Part shown: positions 2,383-40,607 of the stretch, in pieces | How positions within the stretch are numbered: the first letter of the stretch is position 1 | How the letters are laid out: the number at the start of each line of letters is the position of its first letter | Origin: Ignavibacteria bacterium | Lineage (GTDB): Bacteria > Bacteroidota > Ignavibacteria > Tepidaquicellales > OLB5 | Length of the DNA: 40,607 nt | Assembly (NCBI GenBank): GCA_030835025.1 | Contig: JAUQWS010000117.1 | Coordinates: 1-40,607 of the forward strand | Reading direction: 5' to 3' | Made by a program: the position numbers and the translations under genes | The notes under the pieces: generated by a model | Database searches by the model: none | Seen by the model: the letters and a program-made list of their open reading frames with translations, nothing else | Told to the model about the DNA's origin: nothing

Positions 2383-2391
2383 TTAGACTCT

Positions 2392-5751: not shown

Positions 5752-5758
5752 TTAAAGT

Positions 5759-23071: not shown

Positions 23072-23920
23072 CTAATAATTAAGTTCTCCATTTACATGCA
23101 GATCTTTGTTAGTTATCTGCCCCTGTCCGTTTATTACTGAACCATGGCAAACATAACAGGAAGTTATTGTCATGAATGAGTAATGCGGTTCGGTGAAGAT
23201 ATTGTTCGTTCTCGGCGTTGGGTTTCCTGTGACGGGGTCACCGTGACAGGTACCGCAGACAACGCTGTTCGGGTTTGTCCACACTCCAACAGCATTCACA
23301 TTACCTTCTTTAAAAGTACCATGGCAATATGCATTTGAACATGTTGCAGCGTTTCTATCCCAGGTCGGATTTGGCCTTATTGGTCCGTTAATAGTATCGT
23401 ATGCAAGCGGACCGAAAACAATTTCAGCAATTCCGTCAGCGTTCGGACCTATATGCAGCGGGTCGTCAAAGCCGTCAAAATCCTGGTGACATCCTTCACA
23501 GCTAACTGATGCTGAAAACTGCGGGTTTCGGTGGCTTGCATGCACACCTACTCCAAGGGAAGTCACTGATGTATCTCCATTAAGCGCTTTGGGCGGGTTT
23601 GCTCCCCCCGGGCCCCCGTGACAGAGCCGGCAGTTCTGCGGTCCCCCGCTGCCAGAATGGCAGCCCAAACAGCTTGAGCCTGCTGTTCCGCCGGTATAAT
23701 CACCGCCGTGGCAGGTCTTACATTGGTTCAGATTCCATTTGGTGCTGGCTATATACTTACCATGGAAATTGTTTGAGCTCGGATTAGCCCATCCGTCACC
23801 GTGAGTATCAATATCCGGGGCCATAGTTACGCTGTTATCAAGCTCACTGCACCCCTGGTACACCAGGAACATTGCCAGCATAGCAGTGAATAACCCGTAA
23901 TACAAAATTATCTTTTTCAT
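23072..23920 (-). CDS. seven-heme lipoprotein cytochrome
   Basis: 282 residues with a lipoprotein-type signal (LAMFLVYQGCS, Cys about 24). It has six CXXCH motifs (CKTCH, CLGCH, CRLCH, CEGCH, CGTCH, CYVCH) and one CX4CH (CSNAYCH). Glycine-rich CHGG segments and the opening HGDGWANPSSNNFHGKYIAS resemble the CxxCH/CxxxxCH cytochrome domain known from Geobacter-type secreted cytochromes. As a lipid-anchored protein it would sit on the outer membrane, possibly the last carrier before the surface. Last gene of the eleven-gene operon, 23 bases after the 14-heme gene. Confidence 0.88.
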   Translation of the reverse strand: MKKIILYYGLFTAMLAMFLVYQGCSELDNSVTMAPDIDTHGDGWANPSSNNFHGKYIASTKWNLNQCKTCHGGDYTGGTAGSSCLGCHSGSGGPQNCRLCHGGPGGANPPKALNGDTSVTSLGVGVHASHRNPQFSASVSCEGCHQDFDGFDDPLHIGPNADGIAEIVFGPLAYDTINGPIRPNPTWDRNAATCSNAYCHGTFKEGNVNAVGVWTNPNSVVCGTCHGDPVTGNPTPRTNNIFTEPHYSFMTITSCYVCHGSVINGQGQITNKDLHVNGELNY

Positions 23921-23943
23921 TTATGGAATATGTTAAGTTCTTA

Positions 23944-25209
23944 TTATCTTCTTTTATCACTATCTCCGCCGTGGCAATAACCGCAGAATCCAACTCCCGT
24001 AGTGCCGTTTGGTTTTGCGTTTATATCTGTATGACAAGAATAGCAAACAGCACCTTCTGTTTCGTGCCAAATGCCTTTTTCATCGCTCATAAACCCTGCA
24101 TCATGTGTTTTGGGATTTGTTCCCTTAATGCCGTCATTATCAAAATGGCATTTTATGCATGCAGGGTCTCTGCCTTCAACATCGTGGCACGATTGGCAGG
24201 ATTCCATATCCTTCTTCGCAAGATCAGAATGCAAACCTCCTCCTGTATTTACTCCAAATGTTGTAAAGTTGGGCAAAGTATGGCTTGTCGGAACCATTCC
24301 TGTAACAAGTTCGCCCCCGCTCTGGTGGCAGGGTGCACAGAAATTCTGCACTTCATGGCAGGTTTTGCATTCAAAGCTTTTCTGATTGGCATCCAGTCCG
24401 TGAGTAAACCTGTAATTCAGATCATGGGCGTTCGTCAGTTTTTGCAGCGCAGTTCTGTCAGTTCTGACACCGGTTTCCTTTGTGTAGTATGGTGCAAAGT
24501 AACTTTCTTTGGAATTGTTACCGTTGAAACCAACGGGAGAGTGGCATGCCTGGCAGAAATTATCACTGTGACACATCATGCAGTTATTCTTGCTGTTTGA
24601 GGCATCTGTCAGCCTGTGTTCGTTTAGGAAATTAGGACTGCGGTGATTTTTTGGAGTTAGTCCGGTCAAATTACTGTGGCAGCTTTCGCAATTACCAGAA
24701 GCTTTCTGCGTGTTATGGCAGCTGTAGCAGCTTTCCATTATCGGAAATCCCGTAGCAGTCTCCTTTGAGTATTTGACCTTATCCATTCCCTGGTGACAGT
24801 CCAGACAGGCTTTTTTCTCTCCTGCTACATGTACTTTATGAGAGAAAATAAGTTCCGACTTAGTGCTTTTCAGTTTCTTGTAAACACCTTCATAATGACA
24901 CAAATTGCATGTCTTTTCATCTTTAACATCATGACAGCCGGAGCAATTCTCTTTTTTAGGATTAAGATTGTCTTTAGATGATGCAGAGCTTACTGCGCCC
25001 TTATGACAATCTTCACATTTAACTCCGGCATCTGAAACATGGAGCCTGTGATCGAACTTGATTATCTTGCTGTTATCATATCTTTCAGTTGCAAATACTT
25101 TTGCAGATAGCTTTTTAAGACTGTCGGTATCTTTTACCAGATATGCAGTTGAGCTTAAGAATATCAGCAGACCGGCAATCAGAAATAAATATAATTTAGT
25201 TATTTTCAT
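23944..25209 (-). CDS. 14-heme periplasmic or outer-membrane cytochrome
   Basis: 421 residues from the ATG at 25209. This start is chosen over one 60 bases upstream because AAAGGA precedes it and a signal or anchor helix follows directly (KLYLFLIAGLLIFLSSTAYL), while the longer form would run into the porin gene. Fourteen CXXCH motifs spaced through the chain (first CEDCH, last CGYCH). His-rich linkers such as FDHRLHVSD, FSHKVHV and THDAGF suggest bis-histidine ligation. It follows the barrel gene by ten bases, which suggests the two form a porin-cytochrome pair that carries electrons through the outer membrane. Confidence 0.9.
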   Translation of the reverse strand: MKITKLYLFLIAGLLIFLSSTAYLVKDTDSLKKLSAKVFATERYDNSKIIKFDHRLHVSDAGVKCEDCHKGAVSSASSKDNLNPKKENCSGCHDVKDEKTCNLCHYEGVYKKLKSTKSELIFSHKVHVAGEKKACLDCHQGMDKVKYSKETATGFPIMESCYSCHNTQKASGNCESCHSNLTGLTPKNHRSPNFLNEHRLTDASNSKNNCMMCHSDNFCQACHSPVGFNGNNSKESYFAPYYTKETGVRTDRTALQKLTNAHDLNYRFTHGLDANQKSFECKTCHEVQNFCAPCHQSGGELVTGMVPTSHTLPNFTTFGVNTGGGLHSDLAKKDMESCQSCHDVEGRDPACIKCHFDNDGIKGTNPKTHDAGFMSDEKGIWHETEGAVCYSCHTDINAKPNGTTGVGFCGYCHGGDSDKRR

Positions 25210-25219
25210 GATTTTTCCT

Positions 25220-26560
25220 TTATAACTTTTTAAACAGCCAGTAGCTGAATCCTGCAAGTATTCTTGCATCTGTTTTATAGATCCTGTTAATTAGCATTTG
25301 TCCCTGTATATCCACAGAGAACTGCGGCATCGGGCGGTATGTAATACCGAGCGAACCGCTCAAAGAATTCACTTTGTCTGATTCGAATGCATCACCAATT
25401 CTGTAATTGGAATATCCTGCCGATACAGAACCGGAAAGCTTTTCGGGTACTATTTGTCTTTGGTAATAACCATAGACTCCGTCAGATTCTCCTGAATATC
25501 CCATATAACGAGTGAACGAAAGCCCGAAATTCGGATGAGTAAATCCTGCCTGCAATTTCAGCGAATTATTGCTTGTTTCGGCAAACTCCAAGTCTTGTGT
25601 TGACCGGTCACTCTTATCATATATGACTACTCCAGCTCTTCCGAAAATATTGATTCCGTTTTTCAGAGTATAATCTACTCCACCGGATATTTCCTGGTTC
25701 TTATTATAATTGAAGACCCAGAATATACTATTGTATGTAAAGTGCGGCTCTCTGTAAATATATTCAGCAAACACCCTCCAGTTATTGGGCAGCGTTACCC
25801 TTACATTTGCCTCGGCACGGTAGAGCTTCATTAAACCAACATCGTAGTAAACACGGCCAAAGAAATTGTGTTTGCTCAAATAAGTGTAATTAAGATCAAG
25901 CCCTGCCAGCTGCTCTGCCGGACCGTCGAAAGTAATTGTTCTTTCAACAAGGCTGTAAACACTATCAGCTCTGAAGGTTGTATAAGCTTCCGGTGTCCGC
26001 TTCTTGTTTGAGTAACTGAGTGAAGCAGTGAGGTCCTTAACACCATAGTAGCTGAACTGAGCCCCAAAATGGTAATTATCCTTGATTTCCGGGTATTTCT
26101 TGAATTCATAAGTATACGGGGCGAGGGCTCCCCCGTATAACATGAACTGGTATTCTTTAAACTTACCAGCTTTCACTTTAAGATTCAGGCCGTCTAGAGT
26201 ACCCTTGCCTGTTCCGGCAAAAATATTCTGCCTGCCCAGTTTCACATCAAGAACGCCAAAGAGATTTGAGCCTTTTACATACAGGTTATAAAACCTGTAA
26301 GCAAAGCCCCTTCCGGTCTTTTCAATAATATCTTCTTCGGTCTGGGCAAGTGTGTTAAAGCTCCATTGAGCTCCTTTAAACTCCAGCAGATAGTTCTGGT
26401 AGCCTCTCAAATGGGTTGTCTTTGCATCAGAGCTTGTCGAAAGGCTATCTATTCTTTGCCAGCCGTAAAAGTAGTTGTTAAACCTGAAATTTATTGATTG
26501 AGCTGTAATCATAGTGGAGAAAAATAAACAGCCCAACAATAAGATTAGTTTAGGTTTCAT
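25220..26560 (-). CDS. outer-membrane beta-barrel (porin-like) protein
   Basis: 446 residues. Signal peptide KPKLILLLGCLFFSTMITAQ, then alternating strands with aromatic ends typical of a barrel (INFRFNNYFYGWQRID, YQNYLLEFKGAQWSFN, LDVKLGRQNIFAG, FGAQFSYYGVKDLTASLSYS, VFAEYIYREPHF). The protein ends ILAGFSYWLFKKL, with an aromatic residue near the C-terminus rather than as the last residue. About 18-22 strands would fit the length. No heme motif. Placed between a tetraheme and a 14-heme gene, it is the likely sheath of a porin-cytochrome conduit, as in MtrB/Pcc systems, though I see no clear sequence kinship to MtrB. Confidence 0.82.
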   Translation of the reverse strand: MKPKLILLLGCLFFSTMITAQSINFRFNNYFYGWQRIDSLSTSSDAKTTHLRGYQNYLLEFKGAQWSFNTLAQTEEDIIEKTGRGFAYRFYNLYVKGSNLFGVLDVKLGRQNIFAGTGKGTLDGLNLKVKAGKFKEYQFMLYGGALAPYTYEFKKYPEIKDNYHFGAQFSYYGVKDLTASLSYSNKKRTPEAYTTFRADSVYSLVERTITFDGPAEQLAGLDLNYTYLSKHNFFGRVYYDVGLMKLYRAEANVRVTLPNNWRVFAEYIYREPHFTYNSIFWVFNYNKNQEISGGVDYTLKNGINIFGRAGVVIYDKSDRSTQDLEFAETSNNSLKLQAGFTHPNFGLSFTRYMGYSGESDGVYGYYQRQIVPEKLSGSVSAGYSNYRIGDAFESDKVNSLSGSLGITYRPMPQFSVDIQGQMLINRIYKTDARILAGFSYWLFKKL

Positions 26561-26589
26561 CTTTTTATGGTTTATTTAGAATCGCATTA

Positions 26590-27153
26590 TTATTCTTTTG
26601 GTTTTGCATGCTGAATCTTTGCCCACATTTCTTCATAATTAAAGCCTTTAAAGTTCGGGCTTTCTGAATTATGGCATGTTGTGCAAAATGCTGCGCCATC
26701 AGTGTGGACAGTTAAACCGTTTTCGATGGCCTTTTGTTTATCCTTCATGATGGAAAGCTTTTTGTATTCTGAACCGGGACCGTGGCATGTTTCACATTGA
26801 ACGCCGTCTTCTTTGCTGAATGAACTCTCAAATTCAGAAGGATCCATATCTTTCCCTAAAACATGGCACTTTAAACACTGCGGTGTTTCAGCGGCAGGCG
26901 TTGTGAAACCTTTTTCCTTCGCAATTGCGTCTGCTTCAGGAGTCTGGAGTGTCTTGAAAGCCTGTGAATGTTTGCTGTTCTGCCATATATCCAGCTGCTT
27001 ACCCTGTGAATCTGTTTTGTGGCATGCTCCGACACATGTTGTGGCTCCAACATACTTAAAAGCACCCGATTTGTGCACATCATCACCTGACTTGAAGCTC
27101 AATGCCGCAAATCCGATAATCAAAAAAACTGCTAAAGTTAATTTGGTTTTCAT
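26590..27153 (-). CDS. tetraheme cytochrome, c554-like
   Basis: 187 residues with a cleavable signal (KTKLTLAVFLIIGFAALSF). Motifs: CVGACH (CX3CH), CLKCH, CETCH and CTTCH. The arrangement YVGATTCVGACHK, IWQNSKHSQAFKTL, then VQCETCHGPGSEYKK is the pattern of the cytochrome c554 family, periplasmic electron shuttles. The unusual spacing of the first motif is common in that family. AAAGAGGT precedes the ATG. It lies 58 bases downstream of the 18-heme gene and is a good candidate for the small soluble carrier between inner-membrane and outer-membrane parts. Confidence 0.88.
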   Translation of the reverse strand: MKTKLTLAVFLIIGFAALSFKSGDDVHKSGAFKYVGATTCVGACHKTDSQGKQLDIWQNSKHSQAFKTLQTPEADAIAKEKGFTTPAAETPQCLKCHVLGKDMDPSEFESSFSKEDGVQCETCHGPGSEYKKLSIMKDKQKAIENGLTVHTDGAAFCTTCHNSESPNFKGFNYEEMWAKIQHAKPKE

Positions 27154-27211
27154 TCTCTTTTACCTCTTTCGTTTTGGTTGTATGCTATTTAATTTAATTG
27201 TATTAGATCCA

Positions 27212-29263
27212 TTATTTGATCAAACTTTTTACTTTCTTTTTCTTTTCATTCAGGACTGTTGTCACAAGATCATAATTATGTACATAAATACTTGGATATG
27301 AATTAAGCTGGTTCAATATCTTCCTTGCTTCCTCTACTTCTGCTTTATCCTCACTGGTCAGTTCAAGTCCTTTTGTCTGCTGAATTAGTTCATTCAGTTC
27401 CGCAGTAATTTTCTTTACATCCGACTTCCACTCGCCCATCATATCGTCATAACCTGCCTCGTGACACTTAAGGCAGATCATTTTATCCGGTTTTACAACC
27501 TTATCCGCCGAAACATGACAATCACCGCAGCCGGCGCCGCCTGCTTTCATAAAATCAGGCTGGTTCTTGTTCAAATAGCTGCCATTATACACCTGCTCCT
27601 GGAACTTGTGGCATTTTGCGCAGCTTTCATTGGATTTACTCTGCGAATGATGACAACTGTTACAGGTTTCCTTGGTCTGAGTCAACTGACCATGTTTCTG
27701 CTCATTTGAATGACACTTGTTGCAGGAAATCTTATTGCTGATAATATGCTGATTATGCGAGAAATTCATATCAAACTTTTTGACTGAAATCTCCTGTATT
27801 CCGGAGTGGCAGCTAAAGCACTCATTTGGAATGAACTCAGAGTCTGATCTGAATTCCGGAAGTGAGTTGGCAGCTCCAACGGTTGTAAGTGCAGTTTTCA
27901 TCAAGCCGTACGCACCGATAAGAAGCTTATCAGCAAATTGTATGTTATGCACGCTCTTTCCTACTTCAACTATCCTGATATTATGTTCAGCCTGCTTCAA
28001 CAGTTCTTCAGCTTCATTTTTTCTGCTGCTCGAACTTCTTGAGATTATCGGAACAACAGTCTTGTATATTGAGCTTATCGTGGCAAGCCTCTTTGTTGTA
28101 CCTGCTTTCCATTGCACTAAAAGATTGTCATATCCTTTTCCATGACACTTTTCACATGCTTTGCCGCCTGATTTTGATGTATTGATGTCCATCTTATCCA
28201 TTTCATGGAAAATATGGCAGCCACGGCAATTTATGCCGTTGATAAACATTGCACTGGGTGATTTCTCTACATTAAAACCGTTTTCACCTGTGTATAAACT
28301 CACCTGTGAAGTATGGGCATTTGTATGACAGCTCTGGCAATCCGGCGGTTCATTCGGGTCCATCTTCTGAATCCTGTGGTCGATCTGGCTATGACAAGAG
28401 AAACACTTCATACTGTGATTCTTTATGTGCGTTTCGTGCATAAACTTAGTGTCATCAAACTTGTCAAGCCTCTCAGTTTCAAAGTGGCATTGGTAACACC
28501 TTTCTTTTCCAACATCACCCTTGCCTGTAATAGTATTTGTATGGCAATCTAAGCATGCCAGTTTGTTTTCAACAACATTAGTGTGATCGTACCTGAAACT
28601 TGCCATCTGCTCTTTTGACTTGTTCTCCCAGCTGTGACAGGTATTGCAGTTTGAAAGTTTATCATATTTGTGTTCGGGGTCATCTGATCTCTTAAAGTGG
28701 CATGTGAAGCAAGTCGCTTCAGTGACCTCTATGTGCGAGCCCTGGACTACCTGCGAGTGGCAGCTTGTGCATTTGAGCGTTTTCCCCCTTCGCTGTTCCT
28801 GAAGGTGGTTCTTATGACTGAACATCACACCCTTAAAATTGTACAATGAATCCTTGATGTTCTGCATTTCATGGCACCCGGAGCGCGCGCAGGTATTATC
28901 GGGAATCTCTGCCCATGGTTTCCGTTTTTTATAGGACATTGAAATGTAGTTCACTATCTGAACAAGTCCGTTCACTTTTCCGCGGATAGTTCCGGATATA
29001 CCAGGCTCAAAATGACACTCCACACAATCAACTTTGTTGTGTGCCGATGTCCTCCAGCTTTGATAGAATGTTTCCATGTAATGGCAGGTCGGGCAGAAAG
29101 CAGGCCTTGAAGTGTATTCTGCTGCAGCTGAAGTAAGAAATAACAGAAATATAATGAAAGTTGAAAAGTATTTAAGGAAACGCAATGGTTTGCTGCCGCG
29201 CTTATAGAAATCCCTGATCTTTATGTAGACACCTTTGGTTTTACTGAGTATATTGGATACCAT
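27212..29263 (-). CDS. NapC-like 18-heme membrane-anchored cytochrome
   Basis: 683 residues. An uncleaved N-terminal anchor (FLKYFSTFIIFLLFLTSAAA) is followed by AFCPTCHYMETFYQSWRTSA, the CxxCHxM pattern of NapC/NirT/CymA quinol dehydrogenases, then DCVECHFEPGISGTIRGKVN. After that come many more hemes: 17 CXXCH and one CX4CH (CARSGCH) in total, grouped in two blocks (about residues 50-400 and 480-620) around a helical linker. Canonical NapC proteins have four hemes and about 200 residues, so this is a much enlarged form. It would take electrons from quinol and pass them into the periplasm. It follows the NrfD-like gene across a 106-base gap with a hairpin. Confidence 0.88.
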   Translation of the reverse strand: MVSNILSKTKGVYIKIRDFYKRGSKPLRFLKYFSTFIIFLLFLTSAAAEYTSRPAFCPTCHYMETFYQSWRTSAHNKVDCVECHFEPGISGTIRGKVNGLVQIVNYISMSYKKRKPWAEIPDNTCARSGCHEMQNIKDSLYNFKGVMFSHKNHLQEQRRGKTLKCTSCHSQVVQGSHIEVTEATCFTCHFKRSDDPEHKYDKLSNCNTCHSWENKSKEQMASFRYDHTNVVENKLACLDCHTNTITGKGDVGKERCYQCHFETERLDKFDDTKFMHETHIKNHSMKCFSCHSQIDHRIQKMDPNEPPDCQSCHTNAHTSQVSLYTGENGFNVEKSPSAMFINGINCRGCHIFHEMDKMDINTSKSGGKACEKCHGKGYDNLLVQWKAGTTKRLATISSIYKTVVPIISRSSSSRKNEAEELLKQAEHNIRIVEVGKSVHNIQFADKLLIGAYGLMKTALTTVGAANSLPEFRSDSEFIPNECFSCHSGIQEISVKKFDMNFSHNQHIISNKISCNKCHSNEQKHGQLTQTKETCNSCHHSQSKSNESCAKCHKFQEQVYNGSYLNKNQPDFMKAGGAGCGDCHVSADKVVKPDKMICLKCHEAGYDDMMGEWKSDVKKITAELNELIQQTKGLELTSEDKAEVEEARKILNQLNSYPSIYVHNYDLVTTVLNEKKKKVKSLIK

Positions 29264-29312
29264 TTTGTCCTTATGAATTATTTCGAACTACTTCTTACAA
29301 TTAATTTCTAAG

Positions 29313-29337
29313 CTCTAAAAACTCAAGTGCCTTGAGT
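29313..29337 (-). terminator. hairpin between NrfD-like and 18-heme genes
   Basis: Minus-strand ACTCAAG-GCA-CTTGAGT followed by TTTT. A 7-bp stem with a U tract inside the operon. It could end part of the transcripts or mark an mRNA processing point, lowering expression of the downstream genes. The stem is only moderately GC-rich, so it is likely a partial terminator. Confidence 0.5.
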
Positions 29338-29369
29338 CAAATTTAAACAAAATTGAGAATAATTGCCAT

Positions 29370-30530
29370 TCAACTTGCACCCTTTTTCTCAAAAAAGGGA
29401 AATAATCTATCAAAAAGCATCAATAACAAAAACGGCACTATAACAATACCTATTGATACTAACAATCCTTCTTTATCAAAATATCCCGGAAAGTATTCTG
29501 TAAATCCCCTCATGCTCTTAGAAACAAGTTGACCGCCGATCACTACATTCCACCTCATCAAAAGTACTTGTATTAACAGCATTCCCGAAGCTATCCATAT
29601 AAGCGTGTTTTTCAGTTTAATATTCAGATTCTTTGCGATCGAGGTTACAGAGAGTATCAGAAACGGACCAATTGAGAAAACAAAAATCTGCAAATAAACA
29701 TATGAAATTTTCAATTTCCCGTTTATGAGTTGTTCCAGGACACCCCATCTTTCCGTTCTTTCATATGATATGGAAAGTACTTCCATTAGTTCCAGAATTA
29801 CGGCAATAATCATAAATCCCCACAGCCATTTTGACATCAATTCATAGCTTTCCTGGTTCACTTGTTTTCTCCTGAGCCAGTGAACAAACTGATAGAGAAA
29901 TATCAACACTGCAAGTCCAGACACAATTGCAGAAAAGATAAAGATAATGAACATTAATGGTGTTGACCACCATAAGTTTGCCTTAATGGAACCGAACAGG
30001 AATCCCACATACCCATGCAAAATACACGCTACCGGGATTCCAAACGCAGCCAGGAAAGTCACAACTTTTCTGTCATATTTTTTGGTATTCTCATTGATAT
30101 TTACATCTCCAAGTATAAGGATCCTGTAGATTGTTTTTGCCAGTCCTTTGGAGTTCCTGTATTTTTCAATAAAATCCTCGCGATAGCTGAACCAAATCTC
30201 CAAAACCACAACAATCATATAGAAAAGGTAAACAAATCCAAAGCCGCTCATTGCAGAATTAAAATTCGGTGTTACCATAATATTAAAAGCTCTGTCCGGC
30301 CTGCCGAGATGGTTCAGAAGCGGAACAGTTGCAAAGCAAAGAAATGCCAGTGAAGAAACAAGAGCGAATCTCGCTATCGGCTTCAGTTTCTCCATTCCGA
30401 ACACATGATAAAAAGAAGAGACAATAAATGCACCTGCAACCATACCTGTTATATAGGGATACAAAACTATCATGACAGTCCATGTTACATGAAGCTCATT
30501 GGGGAAAACAAAACTATCCGGTCCCTGCAT
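29370..30530 (-). CDS. NrfD/PsrC-family membrane quinol subunit
   Basis: 386 residues, eight or more membrane helices. Typical NrfD features: the opening HVTWTVMIVLYPYITGMVAG, PLLNHLGRPDRAFNIMVTPN and a long cytoplasmic loop after helix 3. No heme or Fe-S motif. It starts one base after the stop codon of the four-cluster Fe-S gene, so the two form an Fe-S/NrfD pair that moves electrons between menaquinol and periplasmic carriers. There is no molybdopterin catalytic subunit nearby, so it is not a polysulfide or nitrite reductase by itself. Confidence 0.9.
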   Translation of the reverse strand: MQGPDSFVFPNELHVTWTVMIVLYPYITGMVAGAFIVSSFYHVFGMEKLKPIARFALVSSLAFLCFATVPLLNHLGRPDRAFNIMVTPNFNSAMSGFGFVYLFYMIVVVLEIWFSYREDFIEKYRNSKGLAKTIYRILILGDVNINENTKKYDRKVVTFLAAFGIPVACILHGYVGFLFGSIKANLWWSTPLMFIIFIFSAIVSGLAVLIFLYQFVHWLRRKQVNQESYELMSKWLWGFMIIAVILELMEVLSISYERTERWGVLEQLINGKLKISYVYLQIFVFSIGPFLILSVTSIAKNLNIKLKNTLIWIASGMLLIQVLLMRWNVVIGGQLVSKSMRGFTEYFPGYFDKEGLLVSIGIVIVPFLLLMLFDRLFPFFEKKGAS

Positions 30531-30531
30531 T

Positions 30532-31290
30532 TTATTTTACCTCCATATCCAATCCGATATAATAACATTTCGGATTCGTGCCCAATTCGGGCTTCAGAAG
30601 TCCGTATCTTCTTTCGTGCAGAATTCTTCTTATTTTGCTGTTTGGATCCTTTAAGTTCCCGAAGATCCTTGCATTTCTGGGACAAGCGTCCACGCATGCC
30701 GGGGCTTCGCCTCTGTGTATCCTGTGATAACACAATGTACATTTATCTGCAACACCTTTTTCGTGGTCAATGTATCTGCAGCCGTAAGGACACGCCTGAA
30801 CACAATAGCCGCATCCAACACATCTTTCCTTATCAATTAATACAACTCCGTCAGGTGATTCATATGTTGCGCCCACGGGACATACCTGTGTGCAGGCTGA
30901 ATCGTAACAATGGTTGCAAAGTTTGGGTACAAAAAAAGCTTTCACTATCTGCGTCTCATCAAAATTATCATCCTTAAACCCTCCGAGAGATCCGTTTGGA
31001 GAATCGACCCTGACATTTTCATTCTTATCTATTTCGTACCTTTCAACCCATGTCCTGAAATAGGTATCAGGAACATTATTCTCGATCTTACATGCTCTCA
31101 CACATGCACCGCAGCCTATACATCTTGTTGTATCAACAATAAATCCCCAGTCAAATTTAAGCAGGTCTTCGTTTGTTTGATAGAAGATCTCCTTATCAGT
31201 TTTAGTGAAAGCAAAGACCGAGCCAACAAGCAATCCTGCCGTTGAATAGAGTCCCAGTTTCAGAAACTGACGTCTTTCGATCTTTTCCAT
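30532..31290 (-). CDS. Tat-exported four-cluster ferredoxin (PsrB/NrfC-like)
   Basis: 252 residues. Twin-arginine signal ERRQFLKLGLYSTAGLLVG at the N-terminus. Four cysteine sets, CIGCGACVRAC, CNHCYDSACTQVCP, CVGCGYCVQACP and CTLCYH with CVDACP, support four [4Fe-4S] clusters. It lacks the C-terminal anchor of the HybA-like protein at 6958. Partner of the adjacent NrfD-like protein on the periplasmic face. The two Fe-S/NrfD pairs in this window belong to different subtypes (HybAB-like and PsrBC-like), so they are probably not a recent duplication. Confidence 0.9.
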   Translation of the reverse strand: MEKIERRQFLKLGLYSTAGLLVGSVFAFTKTDKEIFYQTNEDLLKFDWGFIVDTTRCIGCGACVRACKIENNVPDTYFRTWVERYEIDKNENVRVDSPNGSLGGFKDDNFDETQIVKAFFVPKLCNHCYDSACTQVCPVGATYESPDGVVLIDKERCVGCGYCVQACPYGCRYIDHEKGVADKCTLCYHRIHRGEAPACVDACPRNARIFGNLKDPNSKIRRILHERRYGLLKPELGTNPKCYYIGLDMEVK

Positions 31291-31367
31291 GACTATCTCT
31301 TTACTTTGATTCAGTTGCTTAAAAAAATCTGCTTCTGGTACTTTTGAAACAGTAATTCATGAATATT

Positions 31368-32639
31368 TTAATGACACAATTTGCAAAAATCTTCATTATG
31401 ACAGTTGCTGCAGAGCGCCTTTCCTTTTTGTAAAATAAAGTCTTTGTGCGTATCTCCAAAATCTTTGGGATGCGGCATTTCCAGTTTATGGCATGAATTG
31501 CACGAATTCTTTCTGTGGCAATTCTCACATGATGACGGATTCTTTATTCCAAACTCTTTATGATCCTTTCGCCAGTCCGCCTTGTGAGAAGAAGGTTTGT
31601 TCTTCATGTGACAGTTTATGCAGGAATTCTCAGAATGGCATTTCTGGCAAACTTGACGGCTGTTTGCTCCGAATTCCCTGTGCTGGCTTAACCAATTAAG
31701 AGAATGCGGATTCTGCTTCTCTGTCAGATCCATTTCGTGGACCTGATTCTCGTGGCAATTAAGGCAAATCCTTTCATCACTTTTTGAAACTATTTCCGAA
31801 CCTCCAACATGCCCCGGCCAATCTATTTTTGGCGGATATTTCTCGTCTTTGAATGATTTCCTTTCGTGGCACAACAGGCAGAACTTTGCATTGCCGTTTT
31901 TGAAGATCCTTCCTGCAGATTCATTCTCTTTATGGAATTGATGACAGGTACGGCACTCGATATGTTTACTGTGAGACTTCGTGCTGAATTCCTTTACAAT
32001 TCCTGAATGACAATCTTTGCACTCAAATACCGTTGGATGATTTTCAACTTCTTTTGGACTCTTTTCGGGTTTATCTTTGTGACAATCCGAGCATTTGTAT
32101 ACAATCGGATGAATCCTCGATCTTTGAATATCACTTAAAAGAAACAGGGGTTCGTGGGGGCTATGACACTCGATACATTTTGTTTTCAAGTCACTTACTT
32201 TAAGGAACCCATAATGTTCCGACTGATCTATTTGAGGGAAATCACCCGGCCTTGCTTTGAGTTTCCTGTGGCAATATAAACAACCTTCCAGGTTGTATTC
32301 CTTTTCAAGCTGTGCAGCCTGCCTGGTGATACCTTTAAGGCTGTCTCCGTTAAAATAAGCCACGTGAACGTTTCCTGCACCATGGCAATCAACACAGGGC
32401 ACGTTGTAGTGTGCATCTTTTTGTTTGACTCTGTAAATCTCTGTGTGGCACTTACCGCAGGTAGCTGAATTTTGATTCAGCACTTCCTGCTTAAGGATCT
32501 CATTGTTGGCATCCCATCTGTAATTGCCATACTCCCCGTAAGAATCAGGCTGCATTGATTTGCGTACAATTAATCCCACAAACAAAAGGAAAAATGTTAA
32601 AGAGAAAATATATATAATATGACGTTTATCTTTAAACAA
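31368..32639 (-). CDS. 15-heme membrane-anchored cytochrome
   Basis: 423 residues. N-terminal anchor IIYIFSLTFFLLFVGLIVRK, then fifteen CXXCH motifs (first CGKCH, last CKLCH). The polypeptide stops directly after the final CKLCH, with no residue beyond the heme-ligating histidine. Histidine-rich spacers (SEHYGFLK, SKSHSKHIEC, WLSQHREFG, DTHKDF) suit bis-histidine coordination. The start is TTG at 32639, nine bases after the cytochrome b gene; the next in-frame ATG would remove the anchor. It lies between the cytochrome b and the Fe-S/NrfD pair and probably collects electrons from either. Confidence 0.88.
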   Translation of the reverse strand: MFKDKRHIIYIFSLTFFLLFVGLIVRKSMQPDSYGEYGNYRWDANNEILKQEVLNQNSATCGKCHTEIYRVKQKDAHYNVPCVDCHGAGNVHVAYFNGDSLKGITRQAAQLEKEYNLEGCLYCHRKLKARPGDFPQIDQSEHYGFLKVSDLKTKCIECHSPHEPLFLLSDIQRSRIHPIVYKCSDCHKDKPEKSPKEVENHPTVFECKDCHSGIVKEFSTKSHSKHIECRTCHQFHKENESAGRIFKNGNAKFCLLCHERKSFKDEKYPPKIDWPGHVGGSEIVSKSDERICLNCHENQVHEMDLTEKQNPHSLNWLSQHREFGANSRQVCQKCHSENSCINCHMKNKPSSHKADWRKDHKEFGIKNPSSCENCHRKNSCNSCHKLEMPHPKDFGDTHKDFILQKGKALCSNCHNEDFCKLCH

Positions 32640-32648
32640 TATATTACT

Positions 32649-33476
32649 CTATTCTTTCTTGCCTTTAGTTTCTTCTTCGTTTTCTTTTTTATCCAATTGT
32701 TCTTCCGTTACATCAAGCGGTTTATCAACGGGAGCTTCAGTTATTTCCTCAGCGATTTCTTCTGTTACCTCTGTTTCATCTGTTCCTTCAAGTCTTTTCA
32801 ATTCAAGGGGGTGTTCATGCTCCATCTCTTCACGCGTAAGGTATCCCTTATACCACGCCTTGTTCATCGGGAATGAATCCGGATTAAGGAATATGAAATA
32901 AAAATGCCATACAAGAATAGCAAGTGAAGCAAGAATTGCTTCATAGTAATGAATAGCAGTAGCAACATCCATTCCCATTGTGCCCACATACTTCAGGAAA
33001 GTATTTTCAAACCATAAGACAGTACCTGTGCCGCCCATTATGACCGTTCCCCAAACAACTGCCCAGTATTCCATTTTTTCAACATAAGAAAATCTTCCCA
33101 TCAAGGGTTTTTCCTCAGATTTCCCGACAAGGTACAGCATTGAATCCCTGAAATCAGCAACATCCTGCTTTACTGGAAAGAAATCTCTGATCAGCTGCCT
33201 GCCGCTTGGAGTGAAGATCACATAATACAAGTGGTATAGCGATGCAACTATCATTACAACCGAGGCGATCCTGTGTACAATTCCTCTTGCCTCAAAAGCG
33301 TTTTCACCGATTATGAACACGATCCACTTCACCCAGAAAGATTCAGGAAATTTCAGTCCAAACCCTGTCAGGATGAGAACTATAAAACTGGAAAAAAGCA
33401 AAAAGTGCTGGATCCTTTCATTGAAGTTCATCCTAAGGAACTTCTCATCTATCAATTTTCTTTCTTCTGAACTCAT
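32649..33476 (-). CDS. membrane cytochrome b (FdhI/HydC-type)
   Basis: 275 residues, four membrane helices (about 26-43, 68-87, 137-155, 183-202). Histidines in NERIQHFLLFS, GIVHRIASVV, SLYHLYYVIF, AIHYYEAIL and LVWHFYFIF are placed as in the di-heme cytochrome b subunits of formate dehydrogenase and Ni-Fe hydrogenase. It should oxidise menaquinol. The last about 60 residues are a Glu/Lys-rich tail without structure signals, unusual for the family. It overlaps the upstream 19-heme gene by four bases (ATGA), so the two are probably made as a bc pair similar in idea to Geobacter CbcL or Cbc complexes. Confidence 0.88.
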   Translation of the reverse strand: MSSEERKLIDEKFLRMNFNERIQHFLLFSSFIVLILTGFGLKFPESFWVKWIVFIIGENAFEARGIVHRIASVVMIVASLYHLYYVIFTPSGRQLIRDFFPVKQDVADFRDSMLYLVGKSEEKPLMGRFSYVEKMEYWAVVWGTVIMGGTGTVLWFENTFLKYVGTMGMDVATAIHYYEAILASLAILVWHFYFIFLNPDSFPMNKAWYKGYLTREEMEHEHPLELKRLEGTDETEVTEEIAEEITEAPVDKPLDVTEEQLDKKENEEETKGKKE

Positions 33477-35386
33477 TTCTTCATCCCTGCGTTCTGCTTC
33501 CTGAGCTGCAGCTTCCTTCTCAAGTCAAGTATGTTGTGGAAGATCATGAATCCTATTAATCCGAAAATCATGAACATATAAAATCTGGTTATCCAGAAAA
33601 CTCCCGGTGAATCTTCTTCCGGGTTGTTAAGGTGTATTTTCTTCGTGAAGAGGACTTCAGTAGCCCCGGGATGGCACTTTCCGCAGGTTTCCGGAAGATT
33701 CTTTCTATTTATCGTTGAAAGTGAATCCGTTGATGGCCTTACATTATGGTAACTGTGACAGCTCTCGCAATTTGCTGCTTCTTTAGAACCTCCCCTTGTA
33801 GCAAGACCATGGAAACTTTCAAGATATGACTCTCCCATATTTGTCGGGAGATCATTCCTTTCAACAAGCTCAACAGAAGTATGGCAGTTTGAGCATAGCT
33901 TCACAATGTCTTTTGATTTTTGGGATTTGTTATCAATGTTTTTTGTCACTATTCCGTGATTGCCGTGGCAATTATTGCATGCCGGTGCATCCTGATTTCC
34001 CTTAGAAACTCCCACTTCGTGAATGCTGCCGGTGTACTGGTTCAGCTGGCTGGTATGACAATTTGACTGGCCGCAAGTTTTGGCAATATTGTTTTTGCTG
34101 ATCTTTGATGCCGGATTATCAGCGCTTTCCATTTCGTGTGCGCCATGGCACTGGTAACAAGTAGGGGCTTCAAATTTTCCGTCTTTCAGAGCAAGGTAAT
34201 GTACACTGTTCTGGTAACCGGTTATCAGCTCTTCTTCGCCCTTAAAGTTCTTATGTGGGATTTTTCCGTCTTTATGGCAGCTTAAACACTTATCCGTAAG
34301 ATTTAATTTTGTAAAATCGTTCGAAATCAAAGTGGACGTAATATCGTGCTCACCATGACAATCTGTACAAGTCGGTGCAGCAACATTCTTTTTTTCAAGC
34401 TCCTGACCATGCTTGGATTTCTTAAAACTTTCAACAACGTCTTTGTGGCACTTTCCGCACGTTTCTATCATTCTTGCCCTGTTGGTTGACGCCTTTGGAT
34501 TATCCCTGTTTTCGATCATGTGATCCCCGTGGCAATCCACACATCCAGCCGCTTCCAGAAGTCCCTGGCTATCTATTGAGGCGTGGATACTGGTTCTGTA
34601 ATGCGTAACAAAACTTGCAGAACCTTTTTCTTCGCCCGGGAACTTCTTTTCATCAAGATGGCATTTCAAACATGCCTGTGATTCTACAGAAATCTTTCCG
34701 CGAATTATCTTATGAGATCCGTGGCAATCCGTGCAGGTTGGAGCGTTCACATCCCCTCTTTTCAGAGTCGCCATATGTATGCTGTTCTTAAAATCTTTCT
34801 CATGCTCACCATGGCATTTGCCGCACAGTGCTGATACTTCCTTCTTGGTAATCGATTTCACTTTGTGTCCGCTGCCGTGACATCCCTCGCAGCCGATCTT
34901 GTTCTTTGCATGTACACTTTCGGAGTAATGTGAAATATTCTGATTCTTATGGCAGCTCAGGCAATTCTTTGTCTGGTCCTTTGCAAACTCTTTAGCAGAT
35001 CTTACATCGTGCTTGGTGTGGCAGTCATAACACGAAACCTTAGCGTGAACATTCGTTTCAAGAGGCTTTGATCCTTCATGGCAGTTTGCACATTTAACCT
35101 GCTGTGGTGTCTTTGTGTGAGGTACCTCATCCGGATTATAATTTTCATGGCAGTCTTCACACTCTGCAGCTGAATGCACGGAATTTTTGTGGGATTGCGG
35201 GTCAACAAAAAGCGAGATCTTCTTGCCGTTTTTCTCCATTGTCAGGTCCTTATCTTCGTGACAGGAAAGGCAAACATCCGTGCTCCCGCCGGAGATCCTT
35301 GAATAGCTGTCTGCAATGATCAGCAGCGCAGATATCAGCATAACCGTGGAAAAAATGAATATTATGTGTTTACCGTGAGTGTTCAT
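33473..35386 (-). CDS. 19-heme cytochrome with two membrane anchors
   Basis: 637 residues. N-terminal anchor (IIFIFSTVMLISALLIIAD) and a C-terminal helix (MFMIFGLIGFMIFHNIL). Between them lie eighteen CXXCH motifs and one CX4CH (CGQSNCH). Repeated units of the form CTDCHGxH (CTDCHGSH, CVDCHGDH, CTDCHGEH, CYQCHGAH, CNNCHGNH) point to internal duplication. The C-terminal helix followed directly by an overlapping cytochrome b gene suggests a stable membrane complex facing the periplasm. Second gene of the operon, 18 bases after the degenerate receiver gene. Confidence 0.9.
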   Translation of the reverse strand: MNTHGKHIIFIFSTVMLISALLIIADSYSRISGGSTDVCLSCHEDKDLTMEKNGKKISLFVDPQSHKNSVHSAAECEDCHENYNPDEVPHTKTPQQVKCANCHEGSKPLETNVHAKVSCYDCHTKHDVRSAKEFAKDQTKNCLSCHKNQNISHYSESVHAKNKIGCEGCHGSGHKVKSITKKEVSALCGKCHGEHEKDFKNSIHMATLKRGDVNAPTCTDCHGSHKIIRGKISVESQACLKCHLDEKKFPGEEKGSASFVTHYRTSIHASIDSQGLLEAAGCVDCHGDHMIENRDNPKASTNRARMIETCGKCHKDVVESFKKSKHGQELEKKNVAAPTCTDCHGEHDITSTLISNDFTKLNLTDKCLSCHKDGKIPHKNFKGEEELITGYQNSVHYLALKDGKFEAPTCYQCHGAHEMESADNPASKISKNNIAKTCGQSNCHTSQLNQYTGSIHEVGVSKGNQDAPACNNCHGNHGIVTKNIDNKSQKSKDIVKLCSNCHTSVELVERNDLPTNMGESYLESFHGLATRGGSKEAANCESCHSYHNVRPSTDSLSTINRKNLPETCGKCHPGATEVLFTKKIHLNNPEEDSPGVFWITRFYMFMIFGLIGFMIFHNILDLRRKLQLRKQNAGMKK

Positions 35387-35404
35387 TCAGGCAAAATCCT
35401 CATA

Positions 35405-35758
35405 TCATTTGTTCAATCCCATACAAACTTCGTCAACTGCCTTCTTAAGTTCGCTTAGTTTGAAAGGTTCTGAAATATTTGTGACTCCGTTGCTTTCCTG
35501 AGAGTCTGCACCCAATGAAGGCAAGCAGATTATCGGAATATTTCTGAATTTTTCCTTTATCTTCCTGTTCAACCCATCTTCTAAGCCCTTGTCAAGTATC
35601 AGGCAGTCAATGCGCGTATCGAATGCTTTTAGAAACTCTTCATCAATGTACTCTCCGCTTGTACAGAATACCGTGTACCTGCCTGCGTCCAGTGTCTTCC
35701 GGATAAGTGAGCAGATCTCGCTCTTGGCAGTAATAATTTGTATTTTGAAGTTTTCCAT
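35405..35758 (-). CDS. degenerate stand-alone receiver domain
   Basis: 117 residues with the beta/alpha order of a receiver. A possible phosphoacceptor is D56 in CLILDKGLEDG. The N-terminal acidic pair that binds Mg2+ is missing (the strand reads IQIITAKSEICS), and the conserved Lys-Pro near the end is Glu-Pro (ISEPFKLSEL). Normal phosphorylation is therefore unlikely. It has no output domain. It is the first gene behind the sigma-54-like promoter, ahead of the cytochromes, and may act as a feedback partner of the NtrC-type activator encoded next to it. That role is a guess. Confidence 0.75.
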   Translation of the reverse strand: MENFKIQIITAKSEICSLIRKTLDAGRYTVFCTSGEYIDEEFLKAFDTRIDCLILDKGLEDGLNRKIKEKFRNIPIICLPSLGADSQESNGVTNISEPFKLSELKKAVDEVCMGLNK

Positions 35759-35957: not shown

Positions 35958-37301
35958 TTAATCCAGCTCATATTCTTTTATCTTCTTGTAGAGAGTTTTC
36001 CGGTCAATACCCAGCACTTTAGCGGCCTGAAGCTTGTTCCATCCGTTTTCTTCAAGCACTTTGCGAATATATACCTTTTCAAGGTCTTTAAGGTCCATAC
36101 TGCCGGATAGATTGATAGAATTGTCGTCATTTTCCGAAGGATTCAGGAACTTGAAACTGTGTTTGCCAAGCACGTCTGAATCAGCAGAAATGACAGCCCG
36201 CTCAATAACATTTTCAAGCTCCCGCACATTTCCTTTCCAGTTGTGATTCATCAGCAAGTCAATTGCGTCGCTTTTCAGGACTGCGTTCTTGTTCATCTTT
36301 TCGGAAATCTTCTTGATGAAATGATTTGCAAGCAGAGGGATATCTTCTTTTCTCTCATTTAACGGAGGAAGCGATAATGAAACAGTTGCAATTCTGTAAA
36401 ATAGGTCTTCACGGAATTTTTTTTCAGCAATAAAATCCTTTATGTTCTGGTTGGTAGCTGAAATCAGTCGTACGTCCACTTTTTTTACTTTGTCGCTTCC
36501 CAGGGGTTTTATCTCCCAAGTTTCTATGACTCTTAGAAGTTTTGATTGCAGAACAAAGGGCATTTCGGCTATTTCGTCAAGGAGAAGTGTTCCGCCGTGA
36601 GCAAGCTCAAATACACCCTTTTGCGCGTCTACAGCACCGGTATATGCACCTTTTGTATGTCCGAAAAGTTCACTCTCAAGCAGGTTATCGGGTATTGCAC
36701 TGCAGTTAATGGCTATGAACGGTCCGTTAGAACGTGAGCTGTTAAAATGAATTGCCCTGGCAACGAGCTCTTTGCCGGTTCCGCTTTGACCTTCTATGAG
36801 AATATTTGCATCTGTGCGCGCAACATTCTTAATCATTTCAAAAACATTTTTCATCTTGCGGCTGGAACCTATCATGTTGCTGAATGAAGCTGTATCCTCT
36901 ATTTGAGTTCTGAGGTTTTTTACCTGTGCATTAAGCCTGATATTTTCAATTGCTTTATCGACTTTAATGATGAATTCTTCAAGATTGAATGGTTTGCCGA
37001 TGTAGTCAAATGCCCCCATTTTCATTGATTCCACTGCAGAATCAATAGATGCAAATCCCGTTATCATAATAAAAAGAGTTTCTTCCTGCTTGATTTTCAG
37101 CAGGTCAAGTCCGCTTACATCCGGCATTTGAAGATCGGAGATTATAATGTCAAAATTCCCGTTTTCTATCAGTTCTTTTGCCTTTACGCTGCTGTTTTCA
37201 GTAACAGGGTTCAGGCCTTTCTTTTCGAGCACTTTCCTCAGCAAAATCGTTGAATTTGGCTCGTCATCAACTATAAGTATTTTTATTTCTTCGTTCAGCA
37301 T
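35958..37301 (-). CDS. NtrC-family sigma-54-dependent response regulator
   Basis: 447 residues with full domain order. Receiver 1-120 (D12/D13, phosphoacceptor D56, K103); AAA+ domain about 140-375 with Walker A GQSGTGKE (171-178), the sigma-54 contact loop GAYTGA (218-223, Tyr in place of Phe) and Walker B GGTLLLDE (236-243); Fis-type helix-turn-helix at the end (NGWNKLQAAKVLGIDRKTLY). It should activate sigma-54 promoters when phosphorylated. No matching histidine kinase gene is next to it. It stands between two sigma-54-like promoters, that of the cytochrome operon on one side and that of the T9SS cytochrome on the other. Confidence 0.95.
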   Translation of the reverse strand: MLNEEIKILIVDDEPNSTILLRKVLEKKGLNPVTENSSVKAKELIENGNFDIIISDLQMPDVSGLDLLKIKQEETLFIMITGFASIDSAVESMKMGAFDYIGKPFNLEEFIIKVDKAIENIRLNAQVKNLRTQIEDTASFSNMIGSSRKMKNVFEMIKNVARTDANILIEGQSGTGKELVARAIHFNSSRSNGPFIAINCSAIPDNLLESELFGHTKGAYTGAVDAQKGVFELAHGGTLLLDEIAEMPFVLQSKLLRVIETWEIKPLGSDKVKKVDVRLISATNQNIKDFIAEKKFREDLFYRIATVSLSLPPLNERKEDIPLLANHFIKKISEKMNKNAVLKSDAIDLLMNHNWKGNVRELENVIERAVISADSDVLGKHSFKFLNPSENDDNSINLSGSMDLKDLEKVYIRKVLEENGWNKLQAAKVLGIDRKTLYKKIKEYELD

Positions 37302-37504: not shown

Positions 37505-37520
37505 TGGCACGCTATTTGAT
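37505..37520 (+). promoter_or_regulatory. sigma-54-like promoter of the T9SS cytochrome
   Basis: TGGCACGCTATTTGAT: -24 element TGGCACG, four bases, then TTG, with A where the consensus has C. Expected start near 37532, leaving a leader of about 50 bases that ends in AGGAGG before the ATG at 37583. Confidence 0.7.
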
Positions 37521-37582
37521 GTATAGATAGTCAGAAGATTTAACTAATTATGACAAAACCAAACAATTTAGGAGGATTCACA

Positions 37583-39955: not shown

Positions 39956-40607
39956 ATGAAAACAAAACTTTTTAACAGAAAAACCCTCGTCTTCCTCCTC
40001 GTATTGTTCTTCTCAAGTTCAGTACTCCTCTTTGGTGATCCAGGCGGAAGAACAGGCAGAACTCTTAAAACTTCAACAAATGGATGCGGAGGATGCCACG
40101 GGAGCGCCGCAACCACAGATGTTAATGTAACTTTTGCCGGTCCGGATACTGTGAACATAGGACAAACTGTTCAGTTCACCCTGACGGTAGCAAAAGCTTC
40201 AAAAACCGGCGCGGGGCTTGATATTGCAACAAGAAGGGGTACACTGGCTCCTGTATCAAACAATATCCATCTCTCAAACGGTGAGCTGACACACAATAAC
40301 AACATTTCCATGACAAACGGTTCAGTAACTGTCACATTCAGTTACACAGCTCCGGGTACTTCCGGATTTGATACTTTGTGGTCAACCGGGCTGGCTACAA
40401 ACAGCAACGGCGGCACAAGCGGAGATGATTGGAATTGGTCAGCTAACAGAAGAATTGTCATCAGGAATCCGGTAGGAATAGAGCCGAACAGTGTTGCTGC
40501 AGAATTTTCGCTTAGCCAGAATTATCCAAATCCATTCAATCCCGGCACTAAGTTCGATTTGAGTCTGAATAAAGAGGAAACTGTTTCAATAAAAGTTTTT
40601 GATCTAA
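39956..40607 (+). CDS. monoheme T9SS surface protein, choice-of-anchor V type (partial)
   Basis: 217 codons from the ATG at 39956 to the window end, still open. Signal peptide (KTLVFLLVLFFSSSVLLFG), then RTGRTLKTSTNGCGGCHGSA with one CXXCH. A beta-sandwich follows (VNVTFAGPDTVNIGQTVQFT, later VTVTFSYTAPGTSGFDTLWS). This layout matches the choice-of-anchor V domain proteins of Bacteroidota, which carry such a CxxCH near the N-terminus. The beginning of a T9SS sorting domain is visible (FSLSQNYPNPFNPGTKFDLS). Whether the single motif really binds heme in this family is not known to me. Confidence 0.85.
   Translation, partial: MKTKLFNRKTLVFLLVLFFSSSVLLFGDPGGRTGRTLKTSTNGCGGCHGSAATTDVNVTFAGPDTVNIGQTVQFTLTVAKASKTGAGLDIATRRGTLAPVSNNIHLSNGELTHNNNISMTNGSVTVTFSYTAPGTSGFDTLWSTGLATNSNGGTSGDDWNWSANRRIVIRNPVGIEPNSVAAEFSLSQNYPNPFNPGTKFDLSLNKEETVSIKVFDL

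Follow-up and report, generated by a model that had tools for sequence, protein, structure and literature searches.

A probable modular porin-cytochrome gene system with three candidate quinol oxidases in an uncultured Ignavibacteria bacterium

Introduction

Do the clustered multiheme cytochrome genes on contig JAUQWS010000117.1 encode a complete route for electrons from quinol to the cell surface? The stretch analysed here (the window, 40,607 nucleotides, nt) is the whole of this contig and belongs to the 3.03 Mb genome, in 136 contigs, of an uncultured Ignavibacteria bacterium. Anode biofilms and iron-rich sites are among the reported habitats of Ignavibacteria (PMC7399161, PMC6137239). One type strain of the class, Melioribacter roseus, can use Fe(III) as electron acceptor, and its genome paper proposed that an NrfCD complex passes electrons to multiheme cytochromes and a hypothetical Fe(III) reductase of the outer membrane (PMC3534657; here and below, statements on cited articles refer to their available parts). 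No experimental work on the external electron transfer route of Ignavibacteria was found in the literature searched. Eleven genes of the window, at positions 23072-35758, likely encode a conduit that takes electrons across the outer membrane, best read as a large and modular form of the porin-cytochrome type, and a conduit encoded with its quinol oxidases would be a complete candidate path from quinol to surface. The initial annotation of this DNA had likewise read the unit as a quinol-to-outer-membrane conduit, a reading upheld by the conserved neighbourhood, the large barrel model and the quinone-reactive families of the inner-membrane proteins, whereas its views on the novelty of the combination, the meaning of the gene order and the extent of the system had to be revised.

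Results

Gene unit and heme content

All eleven open reading frames (ORFs) of the unit were found as initially annotated; they share the minus strand, the receiver gene starting at 35758 and the lipoprotein gene ending at 23072 (Table 1). Gene content, heme numbers, conserved linkage, a conserved promoter motif and a predicted barrel are what the analysis shows directly. The total of 77 heme motifs, first counted by eye, was borne out, with 73 strict CxxCH and four CX3-4CH motifs: 18 CxxCH and one CX4CH in the 19-heme cytochrome, 15 CxxCH in the 15-heme cytochrome, 17 CxxCH and one CX4CH in the NapC-like cytochrome, three CxxCH and one CX3CH in the tetraheme cytochrome, 14 CxxCH in the 14-heme cytochrome, and six CxxCH and one CX4CH in the lipoprotein. 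Shuffled versions of each protein contained on average fewer than 0.2 motifs per protein. Among orthologues from loci L039-L083 that share 40% identity or more and pass a length cut (some of the shorter forms so dropped end at contig edges, others are truly shorter), 19 motifs were kept in 23/23 near-full-length 19-heme proteins, 18 in 27/27 near-full-length NapC-like proteins, 15 in 5/5 15-heme proteins from four genomes, four in 45/45 tetraheme proteins, 14 in 34/34 14-heme proteins and seven in 30/32 lipoproteins. Because orthologues keep the same counts, the four non-canonical motifs are believable.

The intergenic gaps of the unit measure 18, -4, 9, 77, 1, 106, 58, 29, -50 and 23 nt. The start of the 14-heme gene was moved from 25269 to 25209, since the longer form overlaps the barrel gene and adds a stretch absent in relatives; the gap of -50 nt thereby becomes 10 nt. 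No minus-strand terminator-like site was found in these gaps, and one lies at 22975-22957 on the minus strand, 97 nt beyond the end of the unit; with 24 sites in the scan where 13.6 were expected, any single site carries little weight. A scan for sigma-70 promoters performed no better than shuffles (37 versus 35.9) and was not used.

Table 1. Coordinates of the predicted features of the unit and its regulatory and surface neighbours in the window
Feature	Coordinates	Strand	Basis
Degenerate receiver-like protein, 117 amino acids (aa), first gene of unit	35405..35758	-	ORF; alignment with relatives
19-heme cytochrome, half of quinol module 1	33473..35386	-	Hydrophobic segment at each end; motifs
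Membrane cytochrome of b561/FdnI type, half of quinol module 1	32649..33476	-	PF01292
15-heme cytochrome, quinol module 2	31368..32639	-	N-terminal hydrophobic segment (anchor or signal); motifs
NrfC/DsrO-type [4Fe-4S] protein, quinol module 2	30532..31290	-	PF13247; RR signal
NrfD-type integral quinone-reactive subunit, quinol module 2	29370..30530	-	PF03916
NapC/NrfH-type anchor with heme domain extended to 18 hemes, quinol module 3	27212..29263	-	PF03264
Tetraheme cytochrome, c554 family, signal peptide; likely periplasmic carrier	26590..27153	-	PF13435
Outer-membrane beta-barrel, 446 aa, signal peptide	25220..26560	-	AlphaFold2 model
14-heme cytochrome, likely wire in or against barrel	23944..25209	-	Barrel linkage; motifs
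7-heme probable outer-membrane lipoprotein, Geobacter-type CX4CH...CX2CH domain	23072..23920	-	TIGR01904; signal and Cys
Sigma-54-like promoter, 1 mismatch, 30 nt before receiver start codon	35789..35804	-	Motif scan
NtrC-type sigma-54 activator (REC, AAA, Fis-type helix-turn-helix)	35958..37301	-	PF00158 234.3, PF00072 78.9, PF02954 57.4 bits
Sigma-54-like promoter, 1 mismatch, 29 nt before nonaheme gene	37505..37520	+	Motif scan
Nonaheme cytochrome with type IX secretion system (T9SS) C-terminal sorting domain; probable surface member	37550..39691	+	9 CxxCH; Por_Secre_tail

The outer-membrane core

On sequence grounds, the genes for the tetraheme cytochrome, barrel, 14-heme cytochrome and lipoprotein are best read as a porin-cytochrome conduit. 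The three elements listed for such conduits (PMC6148476) have predicted counterparts here: the 14-heme protein, by its CxxCH motifs, N-terminal hydrophobic segment and place next to the barrel, for the periplasmic multiheme c-type cytochrome beside the porin; the barrel, by its signal peptide and AlphaFold2 model, for the outer-membrane integral beta protein; and the 7-heme protein, by its Cys and motifs, for the outer-membrane redox lipoprotein. The tetraheme protein matches PF13435 at 60.2 bits (cut-off 20.8). The lipoprotein reaches 41.9 bits against TIGR01904 (cut-off 27) and shows a signal segment followed by a conserved Cys, with an acidic residue shortly after it in 43/45 distinct contexts.

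The barrel yielded an AlphaFold2 model from 32 sequences with a mean predicted local distance difference test (pLDDT) of 84.2 and a predicted template-modelling score of 0.73, with 23-24 strands, the uncertainty coming from one broken strand. All 50 matches listed by Foldseek are outer-membrane barrels by title; AlgE ranked first by E-value (3.8e-10) and the usher FimD, a 24-strand barrel, had the highest query TM-score among them (0.54), and these TM-scores are too low to assign the protein to any family. Simple barrel geometry with a shear number of n+2 gives a backbone radius of 20-22 Å for 22-24 strands (16.5 Å for 18 and 23.5 Å for 26). Judged from model and geometry, the lumen is not obviously too narrow for a cytochrome, a concern that the initial annotation had raised. 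By sequence, the barrel had no Pfam match at E 0.1 and no NCBIfam match at E 0.01, a search of the PDB with its profile gave two chance-level matches (E 2.2), and a Pfam scan of the 32 barrel sequences gave scattered weak matches, with no family in more than 4/32 and none in the barrel of the window.

The 14-heme protein has an N-terminal hydrophobic segment. Across 31 sequences of its family, 13 of the 14 CxxCH motifs are invariant, as are twelve further histidines, which fits the needs of bis-histidine hemes and makes these residues putative ligands. Its best PDB sequence match is 3ov0 (E 9.2e-12), which we take to be the 12-heme Geobacter protein GSU1996. A fold search from its AlphaFold2 model was dropped, since a pLDDT of 50 makes matches meaningless.

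Conservation of the core in relatives

Conservation was assessed in a set of 59 relatives and a class-wide set of 293 genomes, both including the genome of the window. With presence cut-offs of E 0.001 for the barrel and E 1e-40 for the 14-heme protein, both occur in the same 45/59 genomes and both are absent from the same 14; the barrel profile matched in 187/293 class genomes. Named records with barrel matches are titled Ignavibacteria, Chlorobi, Bacteroidetes, KSB1 and Zixibacteriota, the nearest (74-77% identity) being Ignavibacteria records that include Chlorobi bacterium OLB5, UBA2360 and reactor bins. Gene neighbourhoods were surveyed around 73 distinct barrels (loci L039-L083, L109-L114, L116, L118-L121 and 18 of 20 further loci), leaving out barrels of up to 350 aa, merging duplicates with the same last 250 aa and excluding other named records that match already used contigs in length.

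The neighbourhood is kept in relatives; its absence there would, by the initial annotation, have spoken against the conduit. The gene directly after the barrel belongs to the 14-heme family in 68/68 loci with enough downstream sequence, a lipoprotein homologue lies within 3.5 kb downstream in 60/63 loci (those without one being two Zixibacteriota records and one unclassified bacterium), and the tetraheme gene stands directly upstream in 55/72 loci. Even where barrel identity falls to 24-27%, in five records (one from KSB1, three from Zixibacteriota and one from an unclassified bacterium), the barrel is followed by a gene for 13-14 hemes. Shorter forms of the 14-heme family include the 365-aa proteins of L049 and L051, with 12 motifs. 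In one KSB1 relative, a lipoprotein-like frame of 1089 aa with 31 heme motifs, related to the 7-heme lipoprotein, lies upstream of the barrel (L116:6634-9903). One genome carries two conduit cores in tandem (L079); a second genome has conduit loci on two separate contigs (L064 and L075), which differ in their sets of quinol modules.

These patterns bear on a simpler reading, in which the barrel would be a common porin for solutes, the cytochromes beside it would form a periplasmic pool for soluble acceptors, and no wire would cross the outer membrane. Its top structural matches (AlgE, Occ/OprD types, chitoporin) would suit such a function, as would the lack of any cytochrome sheath by title among the 50 listed, yet a solute porin would hardly show the 68/68 linkage and the identical presence and absence with the 14-heme protein in lineages with differing neighbours, nor a lipoprotein cytochrome at its side in 60/63 loci. 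Ordinary porins have 16-18 strands, fewer than the barrel model. We regard this reading as very improbable.

Quinol entry modules

The conduit core is preceded by three candidate inner-membrane entry modules, and this part of the initial annotation was confirmed in that NrfD, b561 and NapC, all quinone-reactive families, were matched above Pfam cut-offs. In module 1, the b561-type protein (PF01292, 51.8 bits, cut-off 30.1; three hydrophobic segments at the threshold used) and the 19-heme cytochrome are encoded by two genes overlapping by 4 nt. Since L059 has a homologous b domain in one chain with a 13-heme protein (Pfam-checked; L060 looks alike), module 1 may be a split CbcL-like, or a CbcBA-like, enzyme. 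In module 2, the iron-sulfur (FeS) protein matches PF13247 at 90.7 bits (cut-off 26.2), the DsrO model at 202.3 bits (cut-off 200) and the NrfC model at 157.9 bits (cut-off 377.6), and the NrfD-type protein, with nine hydrophobic segments, belongs to its family at 121.5 bits (PF03916, cut-off 25.8). The anchor of module 3, with one hydrophobic segment, falls within the NapC/NirT family (PF03264, 30.9 bits, cut-off 24.1) and below the NrfH equivalog cut-off (55.7 versus 134.2). A further module of FeS, NrfD and a 13-heme cytochrome (12 CxxCH and one CX3CH) lies at 4546-7893 of the window, 15 kb from the conduit; a homologous trio stands upstream of the conduit in L133.

Exchange of modules and direction of electron flow

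Besides the window, four genomes from three genera in two families (L042, L043, L075 and L078; the loci of L043 and L075 are cut by contig ends) have all three quinol modules together with the core. The 15-heme, FeS and NrfD genes precede NapC in the window, L075 and L078, and follow it in L042 and L043, so the gene order, which the initial annotation took to follow the electron path, does not do so strictly. Because modules were recognised by BLAST, with the window proteins and the Rieske and cytochrome b proteins from L064 and L119 as references, divergent ones may escape. Across the 58 loci with at least 9 kb upstream, a separate b561 was recognised in 27, a fused b561 in six, the NapC type in 30, FeS and NrfD in four (one of them, L133, resembling the second FeS-NrfD pair of the window and not that of the unit) and a Rieske/cytochrome b pair in 15. 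The Rieske and cytochrome b proteins were confirmed by Pfam in L060, L064 and L119, and the alternative module of such relatives consists of Rieske, cytochrome b and an 11-heme cytochrome. Taken together, the outer-membrane core stays constant and the quinol side can be exchanged.

Entry modules and core might also form two or three transcription units regulated apart, an arrangement compatible with the conduit reading that we consider unlikely, though not strongly so: the gaps of 77, 106 and 58 nt and the splitting or loss of modules in relatives would suit it, and against it stand the common orientation of all genes, the lack of minus-strand terminator-like sites in the gaps and the joint occurrence of all three modules and core in four other genomes.

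The same modules could in principle serve inward transport, with electrons from Fe(II), a cathode or a partner cell passing to quinone through inner-membrane quinone reductases. Conduits and CbcL/MtoC-type modules have been described as bidirectional (PMC6295460), and in L058 the core lies directly behind three genes of the NuoL/M/N family (Pfam), which reverse electron flow could use, L057 being alike by frame lengths. This reading nevertheless appears improbable, given that M. roseus uses Fe(III) as an acceptor (PMC3534657) and that several quinol modules leading into one outlet fit quinol oxidation at different acceptor potentials, as in Geobacter (PMC12307469); outward flow seems likelier than inward. 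The core also follows long membrane-protein frames in L057, L123, L129 and L138, which resemble L058 by frame lengths only.

Sigma-54 sites, activator and surface cytochrome

The system probably extends beyond 23072-35758, the range first annotated: immediately upstream of the unit are an activator gene, a pair of sigma-54-like promoters and the gene for a nonaheme cytochrome with a T9SS tail. The activator gene sits between the receiver-side unit and the divergent nonaheme gene, and its product probably switches on both transcription units. Sites with at most two mismatches were found upstream of the receiver in 13/21 relatives, 12 of these lying no more than 31 nt from the start (random positions, 50/900), and upstream of the nonaheme gene in 4/9, the relatives in this comparison not being mutually independent. 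At up to one mismatch, the window holds three sites against a mean of 1.5, the third inside the FeS gene. A stricter pattern matched four times in the genome, twice here and twice near genes without evident link, and its reversed control three times. In L065, L066 and L068, an opposite-strand frame separates activator and receiver, so a promoter of its own at the receiver fits.

The C-terminus of the nonaheme protein matches Por_Secre_tail at 29.0 bits and FlgD_ig at 30.1 bits (cut-off 27 for both), and SprA_N matches in the same genome at 163.6 bits; with a sorting domain and a T9SS, the latter judged from SprA_N, this cytochrome has the marks of a T9SS cargo. At 39956-40607, a gene cut by the contig end has a single CxxCH and the first part of a T9SS-like tail; its homologues adjoin the nonaheme gene in some relatives.

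The receiver-like protein had no Pfam family above cut-off. In an alignment with relatives, the ILDK aspartate is retained, the N-terminal acidic pair is missing and SEP occupies the place where receivers typically carry KP. It is conserved among the frames of 22 aligned relatives, with a signature LP[SA][LI]...SEP[FL] read by eye. Elsewhere in the window, at 724-3813, inspection of the ORF list by eye suggested a receiver domain fused to a thioredoxin-reductase-like flavoprotein and, beside it, a histidine-kinase-like frame whose front part resembles a cyclic-nucleotide-binding domain.

Discussion

The proposed electron route and its strength

Where these proteins sit, which complexes they form, whether they react with quinol, and the direction, final acceptor and regulation of the pathway are inferred, and we propose the following route. 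Three alternative inner-membrane complexes would oxidise menaquinol: the 19-heme and b561-type cytochromes, like CbcL or CbcBA; the 15-heme cytochrome with FeS and NrfD proteins, like NrfBCD; and the NapC/NrfH-type anchor bearing 18 hemes. Electrons would then reach the c554-type tetraheme carrier in the periplasm and pass to the 14-heme cytochrome that the 23-24-strand barrel holds, from there to the 7-heme surface lipoprotein and probably on to the nonaheme cytochrome exported by type IX secretion, with a mineral, an electrode or a partner cell as the final acceptor. The adjacent sigma-54 activator would probably turn on both transcription units.

Several observations pull the other way. Foldseek matched the barrel best to exporters, ushers and small-molecule porins, with MtrB missing from the 50 listed; the model of the 14-heme protein (pLDDT 50) was unusable, which leaves its seat in the barrel without a model, and its family has 11-14 motifs in more distant class members, falling to 11-12 in some. 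On the regulatory side, a good sigma-54-like site is missing from 8/21 receiver-upstream and 5/9 nonaheme-upstream regions, and the window as a whole shows no excess of such sites when up to three mismatches are allowed (167 found, 188 expected). Finally, no entry module was recognised upstream in 22 of the 58 loci that offer 9 kb or more on that side, and in L076 and L077 the 19-heme, b561 and NapC genes lie on the strand opposite to the barrel, from which it follows that one long operon is not essential.

More tentatively, the system may be a class-wide plug-in outlet, with a fixed conduit, interchangeable quinol oxidases including Rieske/cytochrome b, a sigma-54 switch and a T9SS surface cytochrome; we hold this wider proposal to be possible but somewhat short of probable. 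The window would then hold a version with three non-bc modules, and in the Rieske/cytochrome b versions a 9-11-heme cytochrome would replace cytochrome c1 and couple the Q-cycle directly to extracellular electron transfer (EET). The variants across genera offer a natural experiment on quinol oxidase versus acceptor potential, and the sigma-54 sites and T9SS cytochrome give simple, testable predictions.

Comparison with known systems

The initial annotation did not recognise the combination of genes, a view that fails for its outer-membrane part, as a cluster of the same layout was listed in 2014 as the pcc cluster of Ignavibacterium album, distant from others (IALB_1840 to IALB_1837; Shi et al. 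2014, PMC4245776). It comprises a periplasmic cytochrome (IALB_1840), a porin-like protein (IALB_1839), IALB_1838, with 400 aa and 14 hemes the largest periplasmic Pcc cytochrome then known, and an outer-membrane cytochrome with an atypical heme motif (IALB_1837) (PMC4245776). Judged by layout (gene order taken from locus tags), class and numbers, this cluster is very probably the core found here; 400-aa 14-heme proteins, the size of IALB_1838, also stand behind the barrel in the class genomes of L122 and L131. Unlike in the window, no quinol modules, regulator or T9SS cytochrome are named for the I. album cluster in the available part of that article. M. roseus and I. album are both termed Ignavibacteria in PMC7399161, Geobacter-like pcc porins have been reported in further Ignavibacteria (PMC6137239, PMC7399161), and an MtrB homologue in one of those of PMC7399161.

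The Geobacter OmbB-OmaB-OmcB (Pcc) and ExtABCD/ExtEFG systems likewise combine a periplasmic multiheme cytochrome, a beta protein and a redox lipoprotein (PMC6148476), and the lipoprotein of the window carries the Geobacter CX4CH/CX2CH domain. The comparison is drawn by layout and this domain and, as far as the available part of PMC6148476 goes, inner-membrane quinol oxidases do not form part of those clusters, unlike here. Shewanella MtrCAB shares the principle of a cytochrome held by a barrel, but MtrA has 10 hemes against 14 here, and MtrB is larger than the barrel of the window (PMC4245776). Membership of the MtrCAB/MtoAB/PioAB group was rejected: the barrel lacks a match to the MtrB/PioB-type model TIGR03509 (no NCBIfam match at E 0.01), and the 14-heme protein reaches 24.3 bits against a cut-off of 192.2 for the MtrA/DmsE-type decaheme partner (TIGR03508). 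TIGR03509 matched in 0/59 genomes, the control genomes being silent too, so this is no sign of absence.

On the quinol side, Geobacter CbcL, CbcBA and ImcH are also several oxidases feeding outward paths, with a b561/FdnI-type membrane part (PMC6295460, PMC12307469); unlike Geobacter, the window encodes three candidate quinol oxidases in one unit with the conduit, and module 1 is split. It falls outside the CbcL/MtrH/MtoC group, which requires a fused multiheme and b-type chain, as two genes are present here. ImcH is defined by three membrane segments, 6-10 hemes and an atypical CX3CH (PMC6295460), against one hydrophobic segment, 18 motifs and an atypical CX4CH in the NapC-like protein, which was accordingly not assigned to it. 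Module 2 recalls the NrfBCD, DsrMKJOP, Qrc and HybAB-type complexes in joining an NrfD-type subunit, an NrfC-type FeS protein and a multiheme cytochrome, and differs in its 15-heme cytochrome; its FeS protein barely reaches the DsrO cut-off, the NrfC and NrfD equivalog cut-offs are missed, and no other Dsr subunit was seen in the unit.

The combined unit, the exchange of modules, the sigma-54 sites and the T9SS cytochrome were not described in the open literature searched, as far as its available parts go, which is weak evidence of absence, and no paper joining the words type IX secretion, multiheme cytochrome and EET was found there. As far as these searches show, what is new is the larger system with its three quinol modules, whereas the outer-membrane core itself was already known.

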